A program made the position numbers and the translations under genes. A stretch of 41,748 nucleotides of DNA from a virus. Positions 3,428 through 41,570 of this stretch are shown in pieces. The stretch lies in IMG/VR virus record IMGVR_UViG_3300038696_000127, positions 1-41,748 of that record, one strand, 5' to 3'. Position 1 is the first letter of the stretch. Each line of letters begins with the position of its first letter. The notes below the pieces were generated by a model, which was not told where the DNA came from, did not search any database, and was given only the letters and a program-made list of their open reading frames with translations.

Positions 3428-3834
3428 CAACAATCTACGGGTATCAGTGCCGCGAATGTGGGCAGGAGTACACGAGCGAGTTTCGGGGCGACGTGCTGAC
3501 GGTGGTGAGCGACGACCTCGAACTCGATGGCATGTTCGCCGAGTGCCACTGCGGTAATGGATCGATCAAGCGCAAGTATTCGATCAGCACGACCGCGATG
3601 ATGCACGAGCACATGAACGCGTCGACTGGCTCGCTGATCAGTTCGCCGTCGCAGTTCCGTCGCGAGCTACGTGAGATGTCTGATCGCGAGACGGAGCGCA
3701 CTGGTATCCCGTGCAGCTACGAGCCGATCGATCCTGAGGAGGCGCGTGCTCAGGTGGTCGCGTCCGATGGCGTAGGGCTCGACGCCACCAACCGCGTGCG
3801 TGTGAACGAGGGCAAACCACCGATCAGGTTGTAG
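3424..3834 (+). CDS. FmdB-like zinc-ribbon protein
   Basis: The gene encodes 136 aa from ATG 3424, which overlaps the terminase stop as ATGA. Cys9, Cys12, Cys41 and Cys43 in CRECG and CHCG form a likely zinc ribbon within the first 50 residues, like the FmdB-type ribbons found in many phage packaging operons. The rest is charged and helical. Lying between terminase and portal, it may assist packaging or DNA binding, but this role is inferred only from position. The 59 nt after its stop hold a G-rich repeat and the portal promoter. Confidence 0.75.
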   Translation: MTTIYGYQCRECGQEYTSEFRGDVLTVVSDDLELDGMFAECHCGNGSIKRKYSISTTAMMHEHMNASTGSLISSPSQFRRELREMSDRETERTGIPCSYEPIDPEEARAQVVASDGVGLDATNRVRVNEGKPPIRL

Positions 3835-7001: not shown

Positions 7002-7142
7002 ATGGACAAGAACATCAAGTCGAAGACCGGCAAGGCTCCGGTCGAGAAGGTCGGCCACACCTACTCGGGCAAGTTCGGCAGCGAGCCGATGGCGAAGGAG
7101 CGCGGCCGCAGCCAGACTCCTTCCGAGCAGACCTTCAAGTAA
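7002..7142 (+). CDS. Small basic hypothetical protein (46 aa)
   Basis: The frame runs from ATG 7002 to TAA 7140-7142, with a GGAGG ribosome site 6 nt upstream. The product begins MDKNIKSKTGKAPVEK, is rich in Lys, Gly and Ser, and ends SEQTFK. Its size, charge and position just before the capsid genes suggest a small virion or assembly factor, but nothing in the sequence proves that. The stop lies inside a direct-repeat array. Confidence 0.6.
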   Translation: MDKNIKSKTGKAPVEKVGHTYSGKFGSEPMAKERGRSQTPSEQTFK

Positions 7143-7190
7143 GTCTTCAAGTAAGTCTTCAAGCACATCCTTGAAGCACATCCTTGAAGC
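7132..7190 (+). repeat. TTCAAGTAAGTC direct repeats with CTTCAAG/CTTGAAG hairpin
   Basis: The end of the 46-aa gene continues into tandem TTCAAGTAAGTC units, then CTTCAAGCACATC, then two CTTGAAGCACATC-like units. CTTCAAG at 7157-7163 pairs perfectly with CTTGAAG at 7170-7176 around CACATC, so the array can fold. It may be a processing or attenuation site between small genes. Confidence 0.5.
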
Positions 7191-7228
7191 AATCCATCAT
7201 CCATCCCATCAGCTAAGGCAGGTACGCA

Positions 7229-7570
7229 ATGGCCGTCAGAGGCACCAACACCATGCAGGAAGCGCTTCAGCGCCTCTTGACCGACGTGGCACAGATGAAG
7301 ACTCTCGCGGACAGTGACCTGCCTTGGCTGGTGGAGCTGGAATCGATGGTCCTCAACAAGATCAAGCAGCCAGTTCAGGCTATGCAGCAGCAGGGCGGTC
7401 CGCTCGCTCAGCCACAGGGGCCACCTCCCGGCATGGGTGGCATGGGCGGGCCGTCACCGGCAGGCGCACCGATGGGCGGCGGAATGTCCGCGGGCCCGCA
7501 GATGCCCAACCCCGACGAGCTTCAGCGCCTTCTCGGTGCCGGTGGTCCTGGCGGGCTACCACCGGGCTGA
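7229..7570 (+). CDS. Pro/Gly/Met-rich hypothetical protein before scaffold
   Basis: This 113-aa protein has a helical N-terminal half (residues 1-55, LVELESMVLNKIKQPVQAMQQQ) and a low-complexity C-terminal half of Gly, Pro and Met (GGMGGPSPAGAPMGGG) ending in a short helix. A GGCAGG ribosome site precedes the ATG. Proteins with this layout are common directly upstream of scaffold genes in podovirus-like head operons, and a head-assembly role is likely but unproven. Confidence 0.65.
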   Translation: MAVRGTNTMQEALQRLLTDVAQMKTLADSDLPWLVELESMVLNKIKQPVQAMQQQGGPLAQPQGPPPGMGGMGGPSPAGAPMGGGMSAGPQMPNPDELQRLLGAGGPGGLPPG

Positions 7571-25680: not shown

Positions 25681-26298
25681 TCACGGCGTCACTCCCGCAT
25701 CCCACTCATCGACACGACGTCGAAGCATCGGCATCAGCTCGTCGTACTCGGCGGCGAACTCGGGGGCACGCTCCTTGACTTCGGCGGCGATGTCGTTGAT
25801 GGTGGCGGCAGGCTCCCACCAGCAGCCGACGGAAACGTGATGGCCTGTATCGGATCGGACGAGTGTGAGTATCTGGTTTTCTGATCCGATCGGCCCGACC
25901 GTCAAGACATCACGGGTGTCCCGAATGACGCCGCCGTGGATGTAGCCGCCACGAATGACGCCTCCACGAATGGCGCCGCCGTGGATGTAGCCGCCACGAA
26001 TGACGCCGCCGTGGATGTAGCCTCCGTGGATGGCGCCGCCGTGGATGACGCCTCCGTAGATGTAGCCGCCGTAGATGTCGCCTCCGTAGATGTAGCCGCC
26101 GTAGATGTCGCCGCCACGGACGACGCCACCGTAGAGGTTGCCTCCGTAGATGTAGCCGCCGTAGATGTAGCCACCGAACACTCGGGCAGTCGGCCCGACA
26201 TAAACCTTGTCTAACACGGTGGCGGTGTCAGCGACCCAGCCACCGCCATTCGGATGTTGGTGAGCTGGCACGCCGAGCGGGTTGGACGCGCGGTTCAC
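25681..26298 (-). CDS. Left-handed beta-helix/pentapeptide-repeat protein
   Basis: The gene encodes 205 aa from GTG 26298, overlapping the upstream stop as GTGA. Residues 18-41 have hexapeptide-like left-handed beta-helix spacing (VADTATVLDKVYVGPTARVF). Residues 42-126 are 17 perfect-length tandem pentapeptides of the form GGxI(Y/H/R). The C-terminal 75 residues carry a GPIGSENQILTLVR...VSVGCWW domain known from many phage early proteins of unknown function. The repeats should stack into a rigid solenoid. Canonical pentapeptide repeats have A(D/N)LxX, so the double-Gly consensus is unusual. Function unknown; DNA mimicry is one known use of such folds. Confidence 0.8.
   Translation of the reverse strand: MNRASNPLGVPAHQHPNGGGWVADTATVLDKVYVGPTARVFGGYIYGGYIYGGNLYGGVVRGGDIYGGYIYGGDIYGGYIYGGVIHGGAIHGGYIHGGVIRGGYIHGGAIRGGVIRGGYIHGGVIRDTRDVLTVGPIGSENQILTLVRSDTGHHVSVGCWWEPAATINDIAAEVKERAPEFAAEYDELMPMLRRRVDEWDAGVTP
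25921..26175 (-). repeat. 17 x 15-bp tandem coding repeat
   Basis: The region consists of 17 in-frame 15-bp units encoding GGYIY, GGDIY, GGVIH, GGYIH, GGAIR, GGVIR and similar. Tyr-ending units are clustered at the N-terminal side and His/Arg-ending ones at the C-terminal side, so the array has a chemical gradient. Confidence 0.9.
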
Positions 26299-26525
26299 GA
26301 CGCCACCTCCCTCATGGCGCAGTCGATGCACACGTCAACAGGGTCGCCGTTGACGTCGGTGCTGAGCATTGCGACGGGGAAGCTGTAGAAGCAGAGGCAG
26401 CACATGACCGTCCCGTCAGGGCATTGAGCTTCGTTGTGCCGCTGGAAGCAACAGAGACGAACAGGCGGAGTGGGTGGTCCCGAGACGAGTGAAGCTCCGT
26501 TCTCTGGTGTCGGTGGTTCGTTCAT
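26295..26525 (-). CDS. Small Cys-rich protein
   Basis: This 76-aa protein has a Pro-rich N-terminus and eight Cys (25, 26, 35, 42, 43, 45, 66, 69), including CCLC and CIDC, consistent with two zinc sites. It overlaps the upstream gene as ATGA and the downstream one as GTGA. Small proteins like this are frequent in actinobacteriophage early regions; no function is known. Confidence 0.75.
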   Translation of the reverse strand: MNEPPTPENGASLVSGPPTPPVRLCCFQRHNEAQCPDGTVMCCLCFYSFPVAMLSTDVNGDPVDVCIDCAMREVAS

Positions 26526-26767
26526 AGGTCTTCCACTCCGATCCCGCTTCCTGTTCCGGCACTCATCTCTTCAACTTCCGCGTCACCGAGCCATCGGAGC
26601 CTGAGCACGTTGGGGTCGAGCATGGTGGGTTCCAGTGTGAAGTGGCTGATCTCTCTGCACAGTTCGCACTTGCGTAGCTGCACACCGGGCTCCACGATCT
26701 TGACGCGGATCAATTGTCCACAGCACGGGGTTTCCTTGCGGCCTTTCATGACGCGGTACTCACCCAT
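26522..26767 (-). CDS. Zinc-ribbon-like small protein
   Basis: This 81-aa protein has Cys15/Cys16 and Cys34/Cys37 (PCCGQ, KCELC) forming a treble-clef or ribbon-like pair, then an acidic C-terminus. ATG 26767 was chosen because AAGGG stands 8 nt before it; ATG 26773 is an alternative. The start lies inside the repeat-coded tail of the methyltransferase gene, overlapping its stop. Confidence 0.7.
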   Translation of the reverse strand: MGEYRVMKGRKETPCCGQLIRVKIVEPGVQLRKCELCREISHFTLEPTMLDPNVLRLRWLGDAEVEEMSAGTGSGIGVEDL

Positions 26768-27656
26768 TTCCATCACCCTTCCGCACACCCTTCCGTACAC
26801 CCTTCCGTGCACCCTTCCGTGCACCCTTCTCATCACTCTTCCGTTCACCCGCGCCGCCCTTGAACAGTGACATGTTGGCGTAGTCCACGGCTACATTGTT
26901 GTTCCCCATTGCTTTCCCCCACGGTTTCTGAAACAGGTACACCTGTTCGTGGTCCACTCTCGCGTTGCCGTTCTCACCTTGCCGGTTGCCGGACACCGCG
27001 ACGTCGGTCACGTCGACCAGCTCGAACCCGATCGACGTCATCGTCGCTCGGTGCCACGCACTGACCGGCTGCTTCACACCCTGGCGGATGTGGTCCTTCA
27101 CGTTGAGCAGCAGGAACCCGCCGTCCTCTAGCAGATCCCACGCCTCGTCCCACAGCTTGCGGTGGAAGCGGCGGTACTCGTCACCCCACTGCATCCCCGC
27201 ACTCGACCCGTCACTCAGGTAGCGCCCGAGCTTGTGCTTGTAGGTGTTGCGCACCGAGTCTTCCTTCGCGTCGTGGTGGTCGGCCATGCGGTTGCCGTAC
27301 GTGGGTGACACGGCGATCAGGTCGAACGATTCGAAGTACCTGTCGCACCACGTGAAGAAGTTGGCGCATACCACGCGGTCCTCTTTCGACAATCTTGGGT
27401 GCGCCTCTGCGACATCTGCCCATTCGCTTTCGATCTCGACGCACATGATGTGCAGCACCCGAGGGTCGGGGAAGTCGTTCTCGATGGCGTGCAGGTCGAA
27501 CACGCCGCCGACGCCACCCATCGGGTCGAGCACGTACCAGTGCTTCTTGTCGGGTTGCGACGCGGCGAGGCGCGTGAGGTACTGCTGCATGGTGTGCATG
27601 ATGGGGCGAGAGAACTTTGCCGGGTGCTTGGTCTCACCACTCGCGTCCGCGCTCAC
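26760..27656 (-). CDS. SAM-dependent DNA methyltransferase with basic repeat tail
   Basis: The gene encodes 298 aa from GTG 27656, overlapping the previous stop as GTGA. Motif I is DPMGGVGG at residues 44-51, an acidic CVEIE follows at 72-76, and motif IV is SPTYGNR at 117-123, a variant of the (N/D/S)PPY amino-methyltransferase motif in which the second Pro is Thr. The target strand base is therefore probably adenine N6 or cytosine N4. The last 22 residues are KGAR/KGVR repeats encoded by 12-bp tandem units. No restriction endonuclease gene is near, so it is an orphan methylase, possibly for anti-restriction. Confidence 0.85.
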   Translation of the reverse strand: MSADASGETKHPAKFSRPIMHTMQQYLTRLAASQPDKKHWYVLDPMGGVGGVFDLHAIENDFPDPRVLHIMCVEIESEWADVAEAHPRLSKEDRVVCANFFTWCDRYFESFDLIAVSPTYGNRMADHHDAKEDSVRNTYKHKLGRYLSDGSSAGMQWGDEYRRFHRKLWDEAWDLLEDGGFLLLNVKDHIRQGVKQPVSAWHRATMTSIGFELVDVTDVAVSGNRQGENGNARVDHEQVYLFQKPWGKAMGNNNVAVDYANMSLFKGGAGERKSDEKGARKGARKGVRKGVRKGDGNG

Positions 27657-27925
27657 GACAGCTCCCTGTTCTGTACCCAGCTTATTGTTTTGATCGCGAA
27701 GTTGCGTTGCTTCTGGTCCATCTGGTGCCACAGTTCCAGCACCTCGGCTTCAGCTTCCGCCGCTCGCCCTCTGGCCTTGAGGTACTGGATCACGAGCGAC
27801 GTGCTCTTGCCGCTATCGGCCACGCTGACGGTGCCTTCGGGTGTGGCCGGTCTGCCCTTGCTCATCGCGCTCACCGCGCTCACCGCGCTTGTTTCGTTTG
27901 CTTCGCTTGCTGCTTGCTGTTCCAT
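27653..27925 (-). CDS. Small hypothetical protein
   Basis: This 90-aa protein from ATG 27925, preceded by AAGGAGA, has an Ala/Ser/Glu-rich N-terminus (40 aa) and a helical C-terminal half (LVIQYLKARGRAAEAEAEVLELWHQM). It overlaps the upstream gene by 46 nt and the methyltransferase by GTGA. The basic/acidic helix could dimerise. Function unknown. Confidence 0.65.
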   Translation of the reverse strand: MEQQAASEANETSAVSAVSAMSKGRPATPEGTVSVADSGKSTSLVIQYLKARGRAAEAEAEVLELWHQMDQKQRNFAIKTISWVQNRELS

Positions 27926-34134: not shown

Positions 34135-35748
34135 CTAGCGACGGATGAATTTGCGCACGTCGGACCTGGTGTCGACGGACTCGCGCCACCATTCAGGGAA
34201 CAGCTTCTGCCACCTCGACCAGAGTCCACGGAACGACGAATCGAAGATGTACGTGACCGCCCAATCCTCGTCGTGCCTGACTGCTCGGCCTGTCATCTGC
34301 ACGATGTCGCGGATGGTCTTCACCGAGTACCACATCTGCCCGCCATCGGTGTGCAACCTGGCTGCGATCTGCTTGTCTCCGAGTGCAGGGAACGGGCACT
34401 TCGCCACGATCTGCACCCGGCACATGTCGTCGGGTAGGTCGATGCCTCTCGACATGCTCGGTGCGAGCATCATCGCGCCCTCGGTCTTCTTGTACTGCGC
34501 CAGTGCGAACTCGCGGCCCCGCCCCTCGGTGTAGGTGATGACCTTCCTGCCTCTCAGCCCGCCGAACTCAACGTACTGGCTCAGCTCTTGCTCAAGATCG
34601 CGGGCTAGCTTGTAGCTCACGGTGTGCACGATCATGCGTTCACCAGGATGCTCTTCACTAGCGACCTTGATTGCCCACCCAAGATCCTTGACTGCTTTGT
34701 CCATGCTCTTGTACGTAACGTCGGCCACTGGGGCAAGCACGACAGGCCGGTTCTCGACGGGGAACGTCATCGGCACCCGTACCGTGGCGTACTCACCCTT
34801 CACGCCGAGCGAGTCGGCCATCTCGTCAGCGGAGATGATCGTCGCGGACATCACCAGCCATCGCTGGCCGTGACGCCACAGGTTGCGCACCCCGTGCTGG
34901 TGCACCTTGACCGGCTTCATCACGAGCCCGATCGAATCGTCCTTGGACCACGGGTAGTCCCTCAGCCATGTGCCCTTGTCGTCGTCGTCGTCGCCGCGCT
35001 CCATGTCGGCAGTCACTTCCCCGCGGATCGTCGTCGCGTCAGCGATCGCATACCGCACCGAGTTGTACTGCTGCACGTCGGACTTGCGATCGATTGTGGT
35101 CAGCTCGGCGGCGAGCTTCGCTGCGAACTCATCGAGCCACGCCACGATCGTTTTCTTATGGCACCCCTTCTTCGGGAACTCCATGCCAACCTGGTCGACC
35201 AGCGTCTTGGATGCCTGGTACTCGACGTACCCCATCAAGATCGACTCCAGGGTGTCGCCTTCGTCAGCGATCACGAGATCCCGACCACGAAACGCACCCG
35301 GTCCGTTCGCTTCGTGCAGCAGGTAGCTCGTGTTGGTGACGGCGAGATCCGCACTCAGCGCCGTCATCTTCGCTTGCTCGTACGGGCACGACACCCTCCC
35401 ACTGGGGCAGTACAGGCACGGGTCGTCCTGCGCTGCGCTCGTGCACATCGACGCGTCGGCGTGCTGCTGCGGGAGTCCGACTTCGTAGTTGCTGCGCCCC
35501 TTCAGCACGGCACCGTGCTTGAAGTCACGAGCGAACTGATCTTGCAACGACTTGTCCGAGCACACGTAGAGCGCTCGGGCTCGTAGCTCTCGTGCGATCT
35601 GGTGTCCGATCAGTGTCTTGCCGCTGCCGGTCGGCGCGTCCATGAACACGACGTCGACACCGCTTTCGAACAGCGCGACTGCTTCGTTGATCGCGTCCAC
35701 CTGATGTGGACGCAGTTGCTTGAACCCTGGTGGTAGTTCTGCTGGCAT
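34135..35748 (-). CDS. DinG/XPD-type superfamily 2 helicase with Fe-S cysteines
   Basis: This 537-aa protein has Walker A APTGSGKT at residues 38-45 and four Cys at 102, 111, 114 and 121 in the position of the XPD/DinG iron-sulfur domain. Walker B is VIADEGD at 159-165 and motif VI is QMTGRAVRHDED near 484. XPD/DinG helicases unwind 5'-3' from ssDNA. It is shorter than bacterial DinG. It probably acts in replication or recombination, as no replicative helicase or polymerase is visible. CA-rich leader and GAGGAGA ribosome site. Confidence 0.88.
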   Translation of the reverse strand: MPAELPPGFKQLRPHQVDAINEAVALFESGVDVVFMDAPTGSGKTLIGHQIARELRARALYVCSDKSLQDQFARDFKHGAVLKGRSNYEVGLPQQHADASMCTSAAQDDPCLYCPSGRVSCPYEQAKMTALSADLAVTNTSYLLHEANGPGAFRGRDLVIADEGDTLESILMGYVEYQASKTLVDQVGMEFPKKGCHKKTIVAWLDEFAAKLAAELTTIDRKSDVQQYNSVRYAIADATTIRGEVTADMERGDDDDDKGTWLRDYPWSKDDSIGLVMKPVKVHQHGVRNLWRHGQRWLVMSATIISADEMADSLGVKGEYATVRVPMTFPVENRPVVLAPVADVTYKSMDKAVKDLGWAIKVASEEHPGERMIVHTVSYKLARDLEQELSQYVEFGGLRGRKVITYTEGRGREFALAQYKKTEGAMMLAPSMSRGIDLPDDMCRVQIVAKCPFPALGDKQIAARLHTDGGQMWYSVKTIRDIVQMTGRAVRHDEDWAVTYIFDSSFRGLWSRWQKLFPEWWRESVDTRSDVRKFIRR

Positions 35749-35817
35749 GTTCTCTCCTCGGTACCGGTGTGTGTGGTTGCTACTTGTATTACTTACGTGA
35801 TGAGACGACTCAGTTGC

Positions 35818-36492
35818 CTAGTCGTGTCCGTTGGTCCGTTGCTTCTGCTTCTCTTGCTTCTCCAGTTGACGCATGAACTCCTGTCGCTGGCGCATCTCTT
35901 TGACTTGCGCTGCGCTCAGAGCATCGTTCAGCTCTTGCCAGAGACGATGATACTTCTGCCGTACCCCGTTGGGCAGGCCAGGATCTTCACTGAGAATCGC
36001 CACCCTGTCAACCTCCTCGTTGACCTCGATCCAGTCCTGATCCTCGATCATCGCATCGACGTGCTCTCGCACACGCTTGTAGTCGGTGTTCTGCTCCTCA
36101 CGAATCCGCTGTCGCATCTCGGTGCGCATCCGGTTCGTCTCTGCCTCGATCAGTTGCAACGCCAGCGGGTCGGGCTCAATCATCTCCGTCGCCCACTGAT
36201 GCGCGGTATGGAACAGCGCGTTGCGGATGAAGTCCTGACGTGACCGGAGCTGGTCGCTATCAGCTACCAGGATCTCGATGACGTGCTGCAATCGCGGCGG
36301 GAGCTTCACGTTCACCTGTTCGTAGTGCCCCTTCGTGTCCGATGCGTCGAGATACACCCGGTCTGGATCGTACGCCTTGCCTGACGTGAGCTGATAGGCG
36401 AGAGATTGCGGGTTCGAACTGGATGTACTGGTTGACGATCCAGTTGAAGATCCAGTTGACGACTGACCTGAGGTTGTATTACTGTTTGCCAT
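35818..36492 (-). CDS. Ribbon-helix-helix-like DNA-binding protein
   Basis: This 224-aa protein has a Ser/Thr/Gly-rich flexible N-terminus (1-30) and then YEQVNVKLPPRLQHVIEILV...SRQDFIRNALFHTAHQW (57-100). That segment shows the strand-helix-helix pattern of RHH regulators: VNVKLPP as strand, SRQDFIRNAL as start of helix 2. A long charged helical C-terminus follows (110-224). The upstream region carries three 12-bp repeats and palindromes with the same AGGTAC core, good candidates for its own operator. Ribosome site AAGGAA. Confidence 0.65.
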   Translation of the reverse strand: MANSNTTSGQSSTGSSTGSSTSTSSSNPQSLAYQLTSGKAYDPDRVYLDASDTKGHYEQVNVKLPPRLQHVIEILVADSDQLRSRQDFIRNALFHTAHQWATEMIEPDPLALQLIEAETNRMRTEMRQRIREEQNTDYKRVREHVDAMIEDQDWIEVNEEVDRVAILSEDPGLPNGVRQKYHRLWQELNDALSAAQVKEMRQRQEFMRQLEKQEKQKQRTNGHD

Positions 36493-36535
36493 TGCGTTTC
36501 CTTACTGTTGATCCAGTGGATGACGTGAGTGTTGA

Positions 36536-36570
36536 AGTACCTATCGGAGTACCTATCGGAGTACCTATCG
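36536..36570 (-). promoter_or_regulatory. Three 12-bp tandem operator-like repeats
   Basis: AGTACCTATCGG repeats at 36536, 36548 and 36560 with a strict 12-bp period (read on the - strand, CCGATAGGTACT). They lie 44-78 nt upstream of the RHH-like gene, just after a terminator. RHH proteins typically bind tandem short sites with about one helical turn spacing. Confidence 0.65.
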
Positions 36571-36603
36571 AGAGCCCCATCGTTCCCAGCGGTGGGGCTC
36601 TCG
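36569..36603. terminator. Terminator upstream of the RHH-like gene
   Basis: CGAGAGCCCCA (36569-36579) pairs perfectly with TGGGGCTCTCG (36593-36603) around a 13-nt loop. It isolates the operator repeats from transcription coming from 36.6-36.75 kb. Confidence 0.75.
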
Positions 36604-36700
36604 ACTGTAGCCACGTCGTCACTCTCGGTCAAGGAACCCCACCCTTCTACGTCTGCTCCACTCCAGCTCAACGCACATCTTTGTTCTTCTATTTGCTTCT

Positions 36701-36750
36701 CGGTATCTCTCACTGCTAAGGTACAAGTACCTTGGCAGTGAGAGATACCG
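36701..36750. repeat. Near-perfect inverted repeat with 24-bp arms
   Basis: The arms 36701-36724 and 36727-36750 are complementary over 24 bp except one T-G pair, with a two-base spacer. The centre is GGTAC-AA-GTACC, which contains the AGGTAC core of the 36536-36570 repeats twice. A further copy of AGGTACAAG lies at 36758-36766. Such a long two-base-loop palindrome can extrude as a cruciform or fold as RNA. Confidence 0.85.
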
Positions 36751-36850
36751 AGCCCTTAGGTACAAGATATCAAGATATGGCTTATTTCCAGAAATAGCCT
36801 AATCACGATATCCTTACGTTGCGATTGTGTGACGGTGTGTGCGTCATCCC

Positions 36851-36880
36851 TTGACAAACCAGGCTCTCACCCCTCATACT
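36851..36880 (+). promoter_or_regulatory. Promoter TTGACA-N18-CATACT (+ strand)
   Basis: A perfect -35 TTGACA at 36851-36856 is separated by 18 nt from CATACT (36875-36880). It points against the direction of all neighbouring genes. No frame follows that looks like a gene. Confidence 0.5.
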
Positions 36881-36886
36881 CCCAGA

Positions 36887-36985
36887 GGGATCTCAGCTTC
36901 CCGGTGCATGGTCGAGCAGGTTCTCTCCTTGGTCCCTCGCTCCCATCGCATCGCCCCTCCCCTCAATTGCTACGAGGGAAGGGGC
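36887..36985 (+). ncRNA. Candidate small RNA of about 100 nt
   Basis: A transcript from the promoter at 36851-36880 would run from about 36887 to the hairpin at 36953-36985. Inside lies GGGATCTCAGCTTCCC, a small additional hairpin. It is the only rightward transcription unit that I can suggest in the right arm. Support is the promoter match and terminator alone. Confidence 0.35.
36953..36985. terminator. Terminator of the small-gene operon and of the candidate RNA
   Basis: GCCCCTCCCCTC (36953-36964) pairs with GAGGGAAGGGGC (36974-36985) with one mismatch or wobble around a 9-nt loop. On the - strand it is 45 nt after the stop of the 50-aa membrane protein; on the + strand it ends the candidate RNA. 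Confidence 0.7.
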
Positions 36986-37029
36986 AACGCTCACTCACAC
37001 ACTGAGCGAATGATGGAGATTGTTACGCG

Positions 37030-37182
37030 CTACCGGCGACGGCGCAGCATCCAACGCCACACGGCGTCAGCGATGAGCACCCCGCCAATGACGATGATGA
37101 TGAGATCGATGAGCCCGGTGTCTACAGGCTCACTCACCACGCTCACCAGACTCATCGCGCTCACCACGCCCATCGCGCTCAC
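37030..37182 (-). CDS. Membrane microprotein (50 aa)
   Basis: GTG 37182 overlaps the upstream stop as GTGA, and the frame ends with TAG at 37030-37032. The product has one membrane helix at about residues 23-40 (GLIDLIIIVIGGVLIADA) followed by WRWMLRRRR, a clear positive-inside stop-transfer. The N-terminus (VSAMGVVSAMSLVSVVSEP) is repetitive. It is the last gene of an overlapping five-gene string. Function unknown; a superinfection-exclusion or membrane-targeting role is conceivable. Confidence 0.6.
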   Translation of the reverse strand: MSAMGVVSAMSLVSVVSEPVDTGLIDLIIIVIGGVLIADAVWRWMLRRRR

Positions 37183-37436
37183 TTCGCCGGGCCGTAGTGC
37201 TCGGGGAACATCTCGCGCCGGAACTCACCGAGCGTTACCACTCCGAGGTCGTTGCTGTCGCGTCGGATCTCCCAGTCCAGCCGTGTGCACTCTCGACACG
37301 GGCAGAGCCACAACGGAACCTCTTCGTCGCCGTCGTTGCCGGGATTGGCGATGCATTGGAGCGACGTGCTTGGGTGCATCGCTGACGTGTGGTGACCCGA
37401 GGTTGCCGCGCTTCTCTGGCCGTGTGGATCATTCAT
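37179..37436 (-). CDS. Small Cys-containing hypothetical protein
   Basis: This 85-aa protein has a His/Ser/Thr-rich N-terminus and a WLCPCRECTRLDWEIRRD motif with three Cys, then a helical end. It overlaps the upstream 32-aa frame by 8 nt and the downstream 50-aa gene as GTGA. Family unknown. Confidence 0.7.
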   Translation of the reverse strand: MNDPHGQRSAATSGHHTSAMHPSTSLQCIANPGNDGDEEVPLWLCPCRECTRLDWEIRRDSNDLGVVTLGEFRREMFPEHYGPAK

Positions 37437-37527
37437 CTTCGATCACCTTTCGTGTGAGCTTCGGCAACGCGGGAACGACGCAGCACATGACCACGCCGAG
37501 GATGAACACGATCGCTTGGCCTTCCAT
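37429..37527 (-). CDS. Membrane microprotein (32 aa)
   Basis: ATG 37527 overlaps the upstream stop by one base (TGATG). The 32-aa product starts MEGQAIVFILGVVMCCVVPAL, nearly all membrane helix, and continues with a charged KLTRKVIEDE tail. Its placement exactly between two real genes, sharing bases with both, is the main support. Comparison with related phages would show conservation. Confidence 0.5.
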   Translation of the reverse strand: MEGQAIVFILGVVMCCVVPALPKLTRKVIEDE

Positions 37528-38021
37528 CACCGATCACCTTTGATGACGCGGGCCGTGGCGTACTCGCCGGGTGCTGCCACACCGGACAGCACGATCCGTT
37601 CGCACCCTGCGGTGAACACGGCGTTGTAGTACCGGCGAGTGTTGCGCTCGTCTCGCCACCTCCTGGCAAACGGGTGTGGCTCACCTCGCCAGATGACACG
37701 GGCGATGGGCTCGCCAGTCCAGGTTGTCAGCTCACTCCCATCCGTGTTCATGTACAGACCGCCGACTCGTGGATCTCGACCAGGCACCGAGGCATTCATC
37801 ACGTCGTCGCGGGTCTCGACGGCGCAGCATGGGTAGCACATGGTCCACACTTCGCCGTCGTCCACCTGGTATCCGTAGCCAGTGCCGAGTCCGTCCGAGG
37901 TTGTCGGGGCATGGCCGCAGTCACAGATGCCTGTGTCGGTGATGTTCTGTCGTGCCACGTCCATCTTGTAGTCGATGGTGTCGCGATGTGACTTCACTGT
38001 TTCGCTCTCCGTTTCGCTCAT
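37527..38021 (-). CDS. Widespread phage Cys-rich protein of unknown function
   Basis: This 164-aa protein shows CDCGH (33-37), TSDGLGTGYGYQVDDGEVWTMCYPCCA (41-67) and GLYMNTD, followed by WTGEPIARV and WRDERNTRRYYN. The TSDG..GTGY..D...CY.CCA pattern recurs in an uncharacterised family frequent in phages and plasmids. Cys33, Cys35, Cys62 and Cys65/66 probably hold zinc. Start overlaps the upstream stop as ATGA. Possibly a host-interaction protein; no activity is known to me. Confidence 0.75.
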   Translation of the reverse strand: MSETESETVKSHRDTIDYKMDVARQNITDTGICDCGHAPTTSDGLGTGYGYQVDDGEVWTMCYPCCAVETRDDVMNASVPGRDPRVGGLYMNTDGSELTTWTGEPIARVIWRGEPHPFARRWRDERNTRRYYNAVFTAGCERIVLSGVAAPGEYATARVIKGDR

Positions 38022-38382: not shown

Positions 38383-39537
38383 TCAGACCAGAGCGCTCAA
38401 CGTGTCGGGCACCTTGATGTCGAGCCCGCCGATGATCGTGAAGAACTCACGATCGAACTTCGCCGTAGCGTTGCTCAACGCCGAGGTCATGGTCCGCTCC
38501 ACGCCGTTGTCAGAGTTGCTGCGCATGTGGTTGTGCCACGTGTTCGCTGCCTGGAACGCACCGAGCAACGTTCCGTTCCACGGTGTCACACGCTCGTCGG
38601 ACGTCCACAGTCGCCGCAAGTCGGCTTGCGTGTTCTCTGCAATCGTGATGGCCCGCTGATTCGTGACCACGGTCTTGCCGCCCTTGATGTTGGTTTCCAT
38701 CTGCGGGACAGGCTTGATGCCGTTCACGATCGCTCGGAACTGTGCGTCGGTCACGTCGACATCGGCCAGCGACTCGATGAAACCCTGCATGTCCTCTGCC
38801 TGCTTGTAGATGATGCCGAGAGCGTCACGAGCGTTTGCCAGCTTGCCGAGGGAGTTCGACGAGTGACGCACCTTGTAGATCCCGGTATCAGTCATCGAAA
38901 GCGCCAGATCGAGTGTGTTGTCGCACACTGGAATCTGCGTGGTGGCCTTGTACGTGGTGGCCTTCGTGCCGTCGATGCTGGTCGCCGCCATGAGTTGCGG
39001 GCGAATGTCCATCCCGGCGATCTCGATGCTTTCCGGCATCTCGACGCACACATAGGCCACGCCACCTTGACGGAGCAACCCTGCTGTCGAGATACCGGTC
39101 TCGCCATCCACGAGCTTGGAGAGGTTGTCGACCAACCACTCTTTGTACGAATGCACCTTGTAGCTCTCGATGCCGACCGTCTGGAACTCATGCTCGGTGT
39201 GAGGATGCATGATGCCCTTGAAGCGCTCGCTCGGCACCCAACGGAACGGGCCGATGCCGTCGACGGCATCGCATGTGGTTTCATCGATGCCGTCACGCCG
39301 CTTGTGCATGATTTCGGTCTCGACCGGCTCCCAGTTGAACAGGACGCGCTCCACTTCGCTGACCGGGATGGGTCCGACGTAGCCGTTCTGGAACCCGTCA
39401 GTTTCCCACCACGTTTTGTTCTTGCCAGCGGCCCCATCCCACTGGATGCCCCATCCCATGTGCTTGTACTTTTCGCGGTTCTCGATGTTGCCGATCATGC
39501 TGTTCGTGTTCAGCCATTCGATTGTTTCTGCACTCAT
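38383..39537 (-). CDS. DUF932 / TIGR03299-like phage-plasmid protein
   Basis: This 384-aa protein has the family pattern: an N-terminal part with Trp/Gly-rich turns (MGWGIQWDGAAG, FQTVGIESYKVHSY), VDGETGISTAGLLRQGGVAYVCVEM (144-168), and a C-terminal half with GNARDA-like helix, LRRLWTSDERVTPWNGTLLGAFQAANTWHNH (331-361). It is a little longer than usual for TIGR03299 proteins (about 300-330 aa). The family is common on phages and plasmids and has no proven role, although replication or DNA metabolism is suspected. AAGGAGC ribosome site. Confidence 0.85.
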   Translation of the reverse strand: MSAETIEWLNTNSMIGNIENREKYKHMGWGIQWDGAAGKNKTWWETDGFQNGYVGPIPVSEVERVLFNWEPVETEIMHKRRDGIDETTCDAVDGIGPFRWVPSERFKGIMHPHTEHEFQTVGIESYKVHSYKEWLVDNLSKLVDGETGISTAGLLRQGGVAYVCVEMPESIEIAGMDIRPQLMAATSIDGTKATTYKATTQIPVCDNTLDLALSMTDTGIYKVRHSSNSLGKLANARDALGIIYKQAEDMQGFIESLADVDVTDAQFRAIVNGIKPVPQMETNIKGGKTVVTNQRAITIAENTQADLRRLWTSDERVTPWNGTLLGAFQAANTWHNHMRSNSDNGVERTMTSALSNATAKFDREFFTIIGGLDIKVPDTLSALV

Positions 39538-40198: not shown

Positions 40199-40378
40199 CA
40201 TAGCACCTGCATCTACATGGCATGGCACGTATAAACCTGGCGACGCGACCGCCACGCGCGCGCCACCTCTGCGCGAGCGCGCGAATAGGTGGTTGCCCAG
40301 GGTTGTCGCGTCACCCAGCCGCGGATTGGATACGCGCGGGCGCGGGCCACCCACCACCCGCGCGGAGCTGCTGCTGGC

Positions 40379-40456
40379 GCGGGTCGACTCTCGACTGGTG
40401 CGGGTCGACTCTCGACCGCTCTCGCGCTCTCTACGTGGCGCGCTCTCTACGTGTCG
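40379..40456. repeat. Two tandem repeats of 21 bp and 16 bp
   Basis: Units starting GCGGGTCGACTCTCGAC at 40379 and 40400 form a 21-bp period. CGCTCTCTACGTGGCG (40425-40440) and CGCTCTCTACGTGTCG (40441-40456) form a 16-bp period. CTCTCGACTG recurs downstream at several positions to 40535. Confidence 0.8.
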
Positions 40457-40536
40457 CGGGCTCTATGGTCTCGACTCTCGCCGTTCTCGACTGGCGCGCT
40501 CTCGACTGCCTAGAGCGCTCTCACGCTCTCGACTGG

Positions 40537-40775: not shown

Positions 40776-41570
40776 TTACTTCATGGCGTCGACCATCGCC
40801 GCCATGACTTCGGCTGCGCTGAATCCCGCTGCTTTCATCGCCGCGGCCATCGCGGTGAGATCCGGCGCGGTCTCGCTTGCCACGGTCTCGACTGGCACGG
40901 TCTCGACTGGCGCGGTCTCGCTTGCCACGGTCTCGACTGCATCGACGGTCGTCGCGTTGCCATGTCGTGCCGCTCTCGTCGTCGCCGTGTCGGAGTCGAG
41001 CGACAGGCATGAGCTACACACTTCGAGCCCTGCCAGAGCGTGAATCGTGAGGTTGTTACGCTTGCGATTGCATGCCTGGCAGTGTGTTCGCTCCACGCTC
41101 TCGACTGGCGCGGTCTCGACTGCATCGACGGTCTCGACTGCCGCGACTGTCGCGGGCTTCACTGTCGCGGGCTTCGTGGGCTTGACTTTGGCAACCTTCG
41201 CCGCTCGCTTCACTTTCCTCGCGGCCATCTTCGCTGCCGTCGCCCTGCCAGCATCGCTCTGCCAGTAGAGCGCATCGGCGGGACTTGCTTGCACGAGCTT
41301 GTTCGCGATGATCAGGTCGACGTCAGCGTTTCGCTTGTCATCGTGACGCAACGTGTAGAGCATCGACCCATCGTCGTGAACACCTTCGAAGGTATCGAGC
41401 ATGCCGAACGTGACGCCACCGTGACGATTCAACGCGGCGACCGGATCACCGGATTCGCCATCGACGGACTTTACGTAGAACGTCGCTGACTTGCCGCGTC
41501 CCTTCACTGTCCATCGCACGATGTCGTGAGTCTTCGGGATCTTCACTGCCGGACTAGGTGTGATTTGCAT
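40776..41570 (-). CDS. Repeat-containing protein with basic linker and Cys pair motif
   Basis: The gene encodes 264 aa from ATG 41570, chosen because GGAG stands 6 nt before it; ATG 41582 is an alternative. Residues 1-105 form a beta-rich domain (HDIVRWTVKGRGKSATFYVK). A Lys/Ala/Pro/Val linker follows (MAARKVKRAAKVAKVKPTKP), then VETV/VETAP repeats, a CQAC...CSSC zinc pair, more VET repeats, and a C-terminal helix (MAAAMKAAGFSAAEVMAAMV). It is the first gene of the early arm, right after a promoter with palindromic operator. Its repeat DNA is related to the adjacent non-coding repeats. Confidence 0.7.
   Translation of the reverse strand: MQITPSPAVKIPKTHDIVRWTVKGRGKSATFYVKSVDGESGDPVAALNRHGGVTFGMLDTFEGVHDDGSMLYTLRHDDKRNADVDLIIANKLVQASPADALYWQSDAGRATAAKMAARKVKRAAKVAKVKPTKPATVKPATVAAVETVDAVETAPVESVERTHCQACNRKRNNLTIHALAGLEVCSSCLSLDSDTATTRAARHGNATTVDAVETVASETAPVETVPVETVASETAPDLTAMAAAMKAAGFSAAEVMAAMVDAMK

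Follow-up and report, generated by a model that had tools for sequence, protein, structure and literature searches.

An IMG/VR virus record of 41,748 bp (61% GC), analysed over its whole length and here called the window, carries a cluster of AGGTAC sites beside a gene predicted to encode a ribbon-helix-helix (RHH) protein, raising the question of whether this protein controls its own gene through these sites or whether they serve another purpose. Genes for terminase, portal and major head proteins lie in the left part of the window on its plus strand, and the minus strand forms its replication and recombination side. The cluster lies within this leftward part in a non-coding gap (36493-37029), the borders of which, the RHH gene (35818-36492, minus strand) and a small membrane ORF (37030-37182), are backed by codon statistics; the same statistics reject the overlapping plus-strand frames at the gap. 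A candidate gene reading rightward from 36839 to 37543, with its start behind a plus-strand TTGACA-18-CATACT site, was considered and rejected since its codon statistics are strongly non-coding. Directly downstream of the RHH gene is its partner gene (34135-35748, minus strand), encoding a 537-aa SF2 helicase of the XPD/DinG type (PHROG 2488, Helicase_C_2). A DUF932 gene (38383-39537, minus strand) lies to the right of the array, and a gene of similar sequence is found in one relative (L006:2200-3639), upstream of the RHH gene of that locus.

A cluster of AGGTAC sites and a candidate promoter

Three 12-bp direct repeats (36536-36571), reading AGTACCTATCGG on the plus strand and CGATAGGTACTY on the minus strand of the gene, are located 44 bp upstream of the RHH start codon and are regarded as putative operators. 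The copies start at 36536, 36548 and 36560; copies one and two have the same letters and the third matches at 11 of 12 positions, with a final A rather than G, so that the tandem repeat described in the first-pass annotation is present but its three copies are not all strict. The palindrome described there with 24-bp arms is likewise real, although it spans 54 bp (36699-36752) with 26-nt arms, one mismatch and a 2-nt centre. Its central sequence, AGGTACAAGTACCT (36719-36732), holds two inverted copies of the AGGTAC site that the direct repeats also contain, and a sixth site (CCTTAGGTACAAGA, 36754-36767, plus strand) lies distal to the palindrome. The direct repeats, the palindrome centre and the further site do therefore have one core in common, as had been proposed, with six AGGTAC sites within 231 bp.

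AGGTAC occurs six times in 36537-36763 as against 21 times in the other 41.4 kb; for a region of this size 0.18 occurrences would be expected. When a matrix was built from the six sites, those six were the top six matches of the whole 41.7-kb record, and the next four (at 27332, 34707, 21372 and 27573) all fell inside coding frames, those at 27332 and 27573 both in ORF 26760-27731. Two neighbouring 12-bp copies with up to three mismatches were found nowhere else in the window and in none of 100 shuffles, and for direct and inverted pairs alike the 330-bp region had more repeat pairs than any of 200 shuffles. Presence of the sites at a single locus argues for local control and against a genome-wide switch, which bears on the further suggestion in the first-pass annotation that the protein might control the switch of the early arm. 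Short tandem repeats are nevertheless frequent in this genome (39 TRF rows), making the triple 12-bp repeat alone weak evidence, and in an unbiased scan 15 (6-mers) and eight (7-mers) of 814 other windows surpassed the region, which is thus among the top 2% without being the best. It is therefore the relatives, considered below, that carry the case.

Other repeats of the record include approximately 17 copies of a 15-bp repeat in a minus-strand gene (25681-26331), encoding a GGYIYGG / GGxIxGG five-residue repeat in what is possibly a pentad beta-helix-like protein. A second tandem array (7133-7195), composed of CTTCAAGTAAGT in 2.6 copies followed by CTTGAAGCACATC in 3.1 copies, is positioned just upstream of an ORF at 7229 and partly forms the 3' end of the preceding small ORF. 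Dense tandem repeats of 15-21 bp, often with a CTCGACTG core, lie close to the right end of the record (40374-40508 and 40868-41175).

Between the two site clusters a candidate sigma-70-type promoter for the RHH-helicase operon is predicted on the minus strand (36604-36632, TTGACC-17-TACAGT), matching the consensus at 9 of 12 positions. A hairpin with 15-nt arms and a 7-nt loop (36568-36604) lies beside the predicted start point and has no T run on either side. At the far edge of the regulatory gap is a G+C-rich hairpin (36953-36985, minus strand) which is more stable as leftward RNA (-29.6 versus -21.9 kcal/mol for 36950-36995) and is likely a terminator lacking a T run, for an operon starting to the right of 37030.

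The RHH protein and its helicase partner

The protein encoded at 35818-36492 has 224 residues, comprising a low-complexity, Ser/Thr/Gly-rich N-terminus (1-40), an RHH domain (approximately 57-103; 36184-36324, minus strand) and a long C-terminal part (109-221), in which approximately 110 residues are predicted to be helical by the full-length AF2 model. This model, of low overall confidence, places a strand at 57-63 (YEQVNVK) and helices at 66-78 and 85-103, whilst the domain model, generated from an alignment of 19 sequences, has a pLDDT of 88 with helices at 26-38 and 45-63 in domain numbering. Foldseek returned ParD2 as the top PDB match of the domain (rmsd 1.5 A over 45 aligned columns, though at E = 5.8), and the five best matches in a profile search of the PDB were all RHH antitoxins, with marginal E values of 0.04-0.23. 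The strand-helix-helix arrangement of the MetJ/Arc/CopG superfamily is thus seen in the AF2 monomer models as well as in the ParD2 match, and the RHH fold suggested at first from the sequence pattern is supported by structure prediction and profile searches alike. Within the strand, QVNVK fits the QxNx[R/K] pattern through which Gln9, Asn11 and Arg13 of Arc contact bases (PMC12645479).

No curated RHH model from Pfam, NCBIfam or PHROG scored above its cut-off; RHH_8 matched one family member (E 0.003-0.04) and the CopG-like PHROG 7325 matched two (best E 0.003), such matches being helpful but not defining in so diverse a superfamily. As no curated family reaches its cut-off, the protein is placed in a new, unnamed family inside a known fold, and the family would probably be one of a known kind, the RHH autorepressors. 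A Pfam hint of DGCR6 (E 0.001, below the Pfam cut-off) was put down to coiled-coil similarity, and a fold search with the full-length model gave a meaningless result owing to the long helices.

Neither tblastn with the RHH protein nor a DNA search with the region produced a match among 50,697 phages, and no phage was gained from viral contigs when the query was the RHH protein by itself, the protein together with one relative, or a narrow RHH alignment, or by way of the DUF932 gene. Scanning of viral contigs from the helicase as query yielded 80 loci, and an RHH profile then located an RHH gene directly upstream of the helicase gene, or separated from it by a small gene or short gap, in approximately 19 further distinct phages, none isolated and all uncultured. 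In the nearer relatives the strand is preceded by a motif of the form [FY]Yx.A[ST]D..GH. The locus had been called undescribed; this holds in that the protein is encoded in no record of an isolated phage, but RHH autorepressors with multiple operators are themselves well known. An XRE-type HTH gene immediately precedes the RHH gene in L002, L005, L025, L030, L038 and L041, making two small regulators frequent neighbours, and is absent from this position in the window. Two helicase relatives (L087 and L088, 34% identity) are on 3.4-kb contigs binned as Aenigmatarchaeota, which may be pieces of archaeal viruses or else phage contigs placed in the wrong bin.

No small toxin gene is found beside the RHH gene, the downstream gene being that of the 537-aa helicase here and in the relatives, so the locus does not have the composition of a type II toxin-antitoxin system of the RelBE/ParDE type. 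Similarly, the scanned proteins include no relaxase and the helicase has no relaxase domain, placing the RHH protein outside the relaxosome accessory factors (PcfF, NikA, TraY).

Site arrays upstream of RHH genes in related phages

The regions upstream of the RHH genes of the relatives have no sequence in common, yet in most of them one short site occurs several times, its letters differing between phages in almost every case. The motifs are GTATAC in L041, GTAWNACA approximately every 8 bp in L018, CCTAGC in L007, GTAACAC in L005, L037 and L038, GTAGCC in L006, TAGACC in L003, CGTCAC in L017, CGTAAC in L002 and CTCAACA in L009. A cross table indicated that each is largely confined to its own phage, the motifs having been picked after looking. 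In many loci the site copies are arranged as large inverted repeats, which is also the case in the window. L025 has in addition two 25-bp direct copies (3563-3619), 32 bp apart and each forming a small hairpin (TGCTAC-TTTTT-GGTAGCA), upstream of its XRE-RHH genes.

As a crude 8-mer count was too weak against coding repeats, it was replaced by a shuffle test and a motif-free scan. Of 19 regions, 11 had an excess of repeat pairs over 200 shuffles (p <= 0.005), namely those of the window, L003, L006, L007, L009, L010, L017, L018, L025, L038 and L041, with the excess in L010 residing only ahead of the gene upstream of RHH; no significant excess was detected by this test in L013, L022, L030 and L037. 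In the motif-free scan with 6-mers the RHH-upstream window ranked first among 114-298 windows in L002, L007, L018, L038 and L041, and with 7-mers it did so in L009; at least five first ranks of 18 have a probability of approximately 6e-6 (allowing three tries per locus and 200 windows). Both analyses support the proposed association of the RHH protein with site repeats immediately ahead of its gene, and repeated and inverted short sites in this position are what an RHH autorepressor with multiple operators would have. GTAACAC is common only to L005, L037 and L038, the proteins of which are 23-32% identical and all have the strand QFR; this would fit specificity following the strand, although the motif was chosen post hoc and the three loci represent one group.

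Proposed control of the RHH-helicase operon and comparison with known systems

These data are best explained, with a probability of approximately 0.7, by a control region of the RHH-helicase operon in which the RHH protein is an autoregulator binding the array around its own promoter. The explanation builds on computed features, namely the sites with their confinement to one locus, the predicted RHH domain, conservation of the RHH-helicase pair and recurring phage-specific arrays, from which we infer binding, promoter and repression; autoregulation is well supported by comparison, short of proof. At AGGTAC-type sites, dimers of the 35818-36492 protein would enter the major groove with their two-stranded sheet. 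On relO, RelB dimers occupy abutting 12-bp half-sites on one face of the DNA (PMC2812701), and because the 12-bp period of the direct repeats is the same, there would be room for three adjacent RHH dimers on them, with an inverted pair of dimers at the palindrome centre. They would flank the predicted promoter (36632-36604) on both sides and presumably repress and time the RHH gene itself, the helicase gene and the recombination genes behind, perhaps with a loop of approximately 170 bp between the two clusters. Repression from both sides would be the simplest reading. Against a plain autorepressor, such a protein would need neither so long a helical C-terminus nor a constant helicase partner; the predicted promoter matches at only 9 of 12 positions, tandem repeats are frequent in the genome and four relatives are without significant excess.

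The RHH-helicase pairing in approximately 20 phages and the helical C-terminus are also what would be expected if the array were a replication or helicase-loading site, at which the RHH protein, bound to iteron-like repeats and the palindrome, would bring in the XPD/DinG-like helicase via its helical stalk. Precedents for parts of this scheme are PcfF, in which an RHH domain plus stalk recruits the relaxase PcfG at oriT inverted repeats (PMC6514445), and the RHH antitoxin PrpA, which binds origin iterons (PMC7848731). Large inverted repeats in many relatives, an AT-richer block beside the palindrome and restriction of the sites to one locus are further points in its favour, but this block reaches only 60% AT over 50 bp. 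GC skew is flat with no inflection at 36.6 kb, and the arrays of L007 and L009 adjoin promoter-like sequences as operators would, both mildly against. To our knowledge no RHH protein is a replication initiator, which also counts against this explanation. On balance we regard a loading site as unlikely, and autoregulation could exist besides it. About as unlikely is a full replication-initiation module, in which the RHH protein would mark an origin by means of a fast-diverging palindromic array, loading the helicase via the stalk and giving each phage a private origin code.

The palindrome (z approximately -10) and the hairpin fold very strongly as RNA, and with tandem repeats so common in this genome they might be terminators, leader or stability hairpins, the sharing of AGGTAC being an accident or by-product of slippage. 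This is improbable given that neither is followed by a T run, that one and the same site is found in the palindrome centre and, at a distance, in the direct array, and that relatives independently have direct and inverted short-site copies at the same place. An Rfam search of 35500-37500 gave sub-threshold matches only, mostly of miRNA type and caused by the palindrome. Binding of the sites by a host factor or another phage regulator, suggested by the XRE-like genes read from the sequences of the relatives named above, is very improbable since no XRE-type gene adjoins the window array, arrays are also present in L003, L009 and L018 where no adjacent XRE gene was seen, and the variation of the motif between phages would be expected of a partner encoded by the phage rather than by the host.

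The array marks the likely control region of replication genes in a phage group for which no isolated member was found. With approximately twenty phages in which a divergent RHH protein is naturally paired with what is likely its cognate array, all in one syntenic place, a set is at hand for working out how the RHH strand reads DNA. Were the array an origin, it would represent a new way of starting phage replication.

Among known systems, PcfF at oriT of pCF10 is similar in its RHH domain with helical stalk, its inverted repeats and an adjoining DNA-processing enzyme (PMC6514445), but its partner is a relaxase and none was found among the proteins scanned for the window. The omega/ParB protein of pSM19035 binds contiguous direct and inverted 7-bp repeats (PMC9499535), comparable to the 8-bp array of L018, whereas its partner is a ParA ATPase and its role plasmid partition. 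Arc (and Mnt) of P22 is a phage RHH repressor with the strand pattern QxNx[R/K] (PMC12645479), but it has 53 residues, no stalk, a 21-bp operator bound by two dimers and no helicase partner, and the likeness seen between it and the window protein is one of fold and strand pattern. SvtR and AvtR are RHH proteins of archaeal viruses with imperfect inverted repeats as binding sites; repression by SvtR is directed at its own promoter, and RHH dimers bind several operators cooperatively (PMC5569661), although these are small proteins and SvtR has further targets on its genome, of which none was found in the window. RelB of the E. coli type II system differs in having an adjacent toxin gene where the window has a helicase partner, in its core sequence and in being shorter, but on relO it provides the likeness of an RHH protein that represses its own promoter from abutting 12-bp half-sites (PMC2812701).
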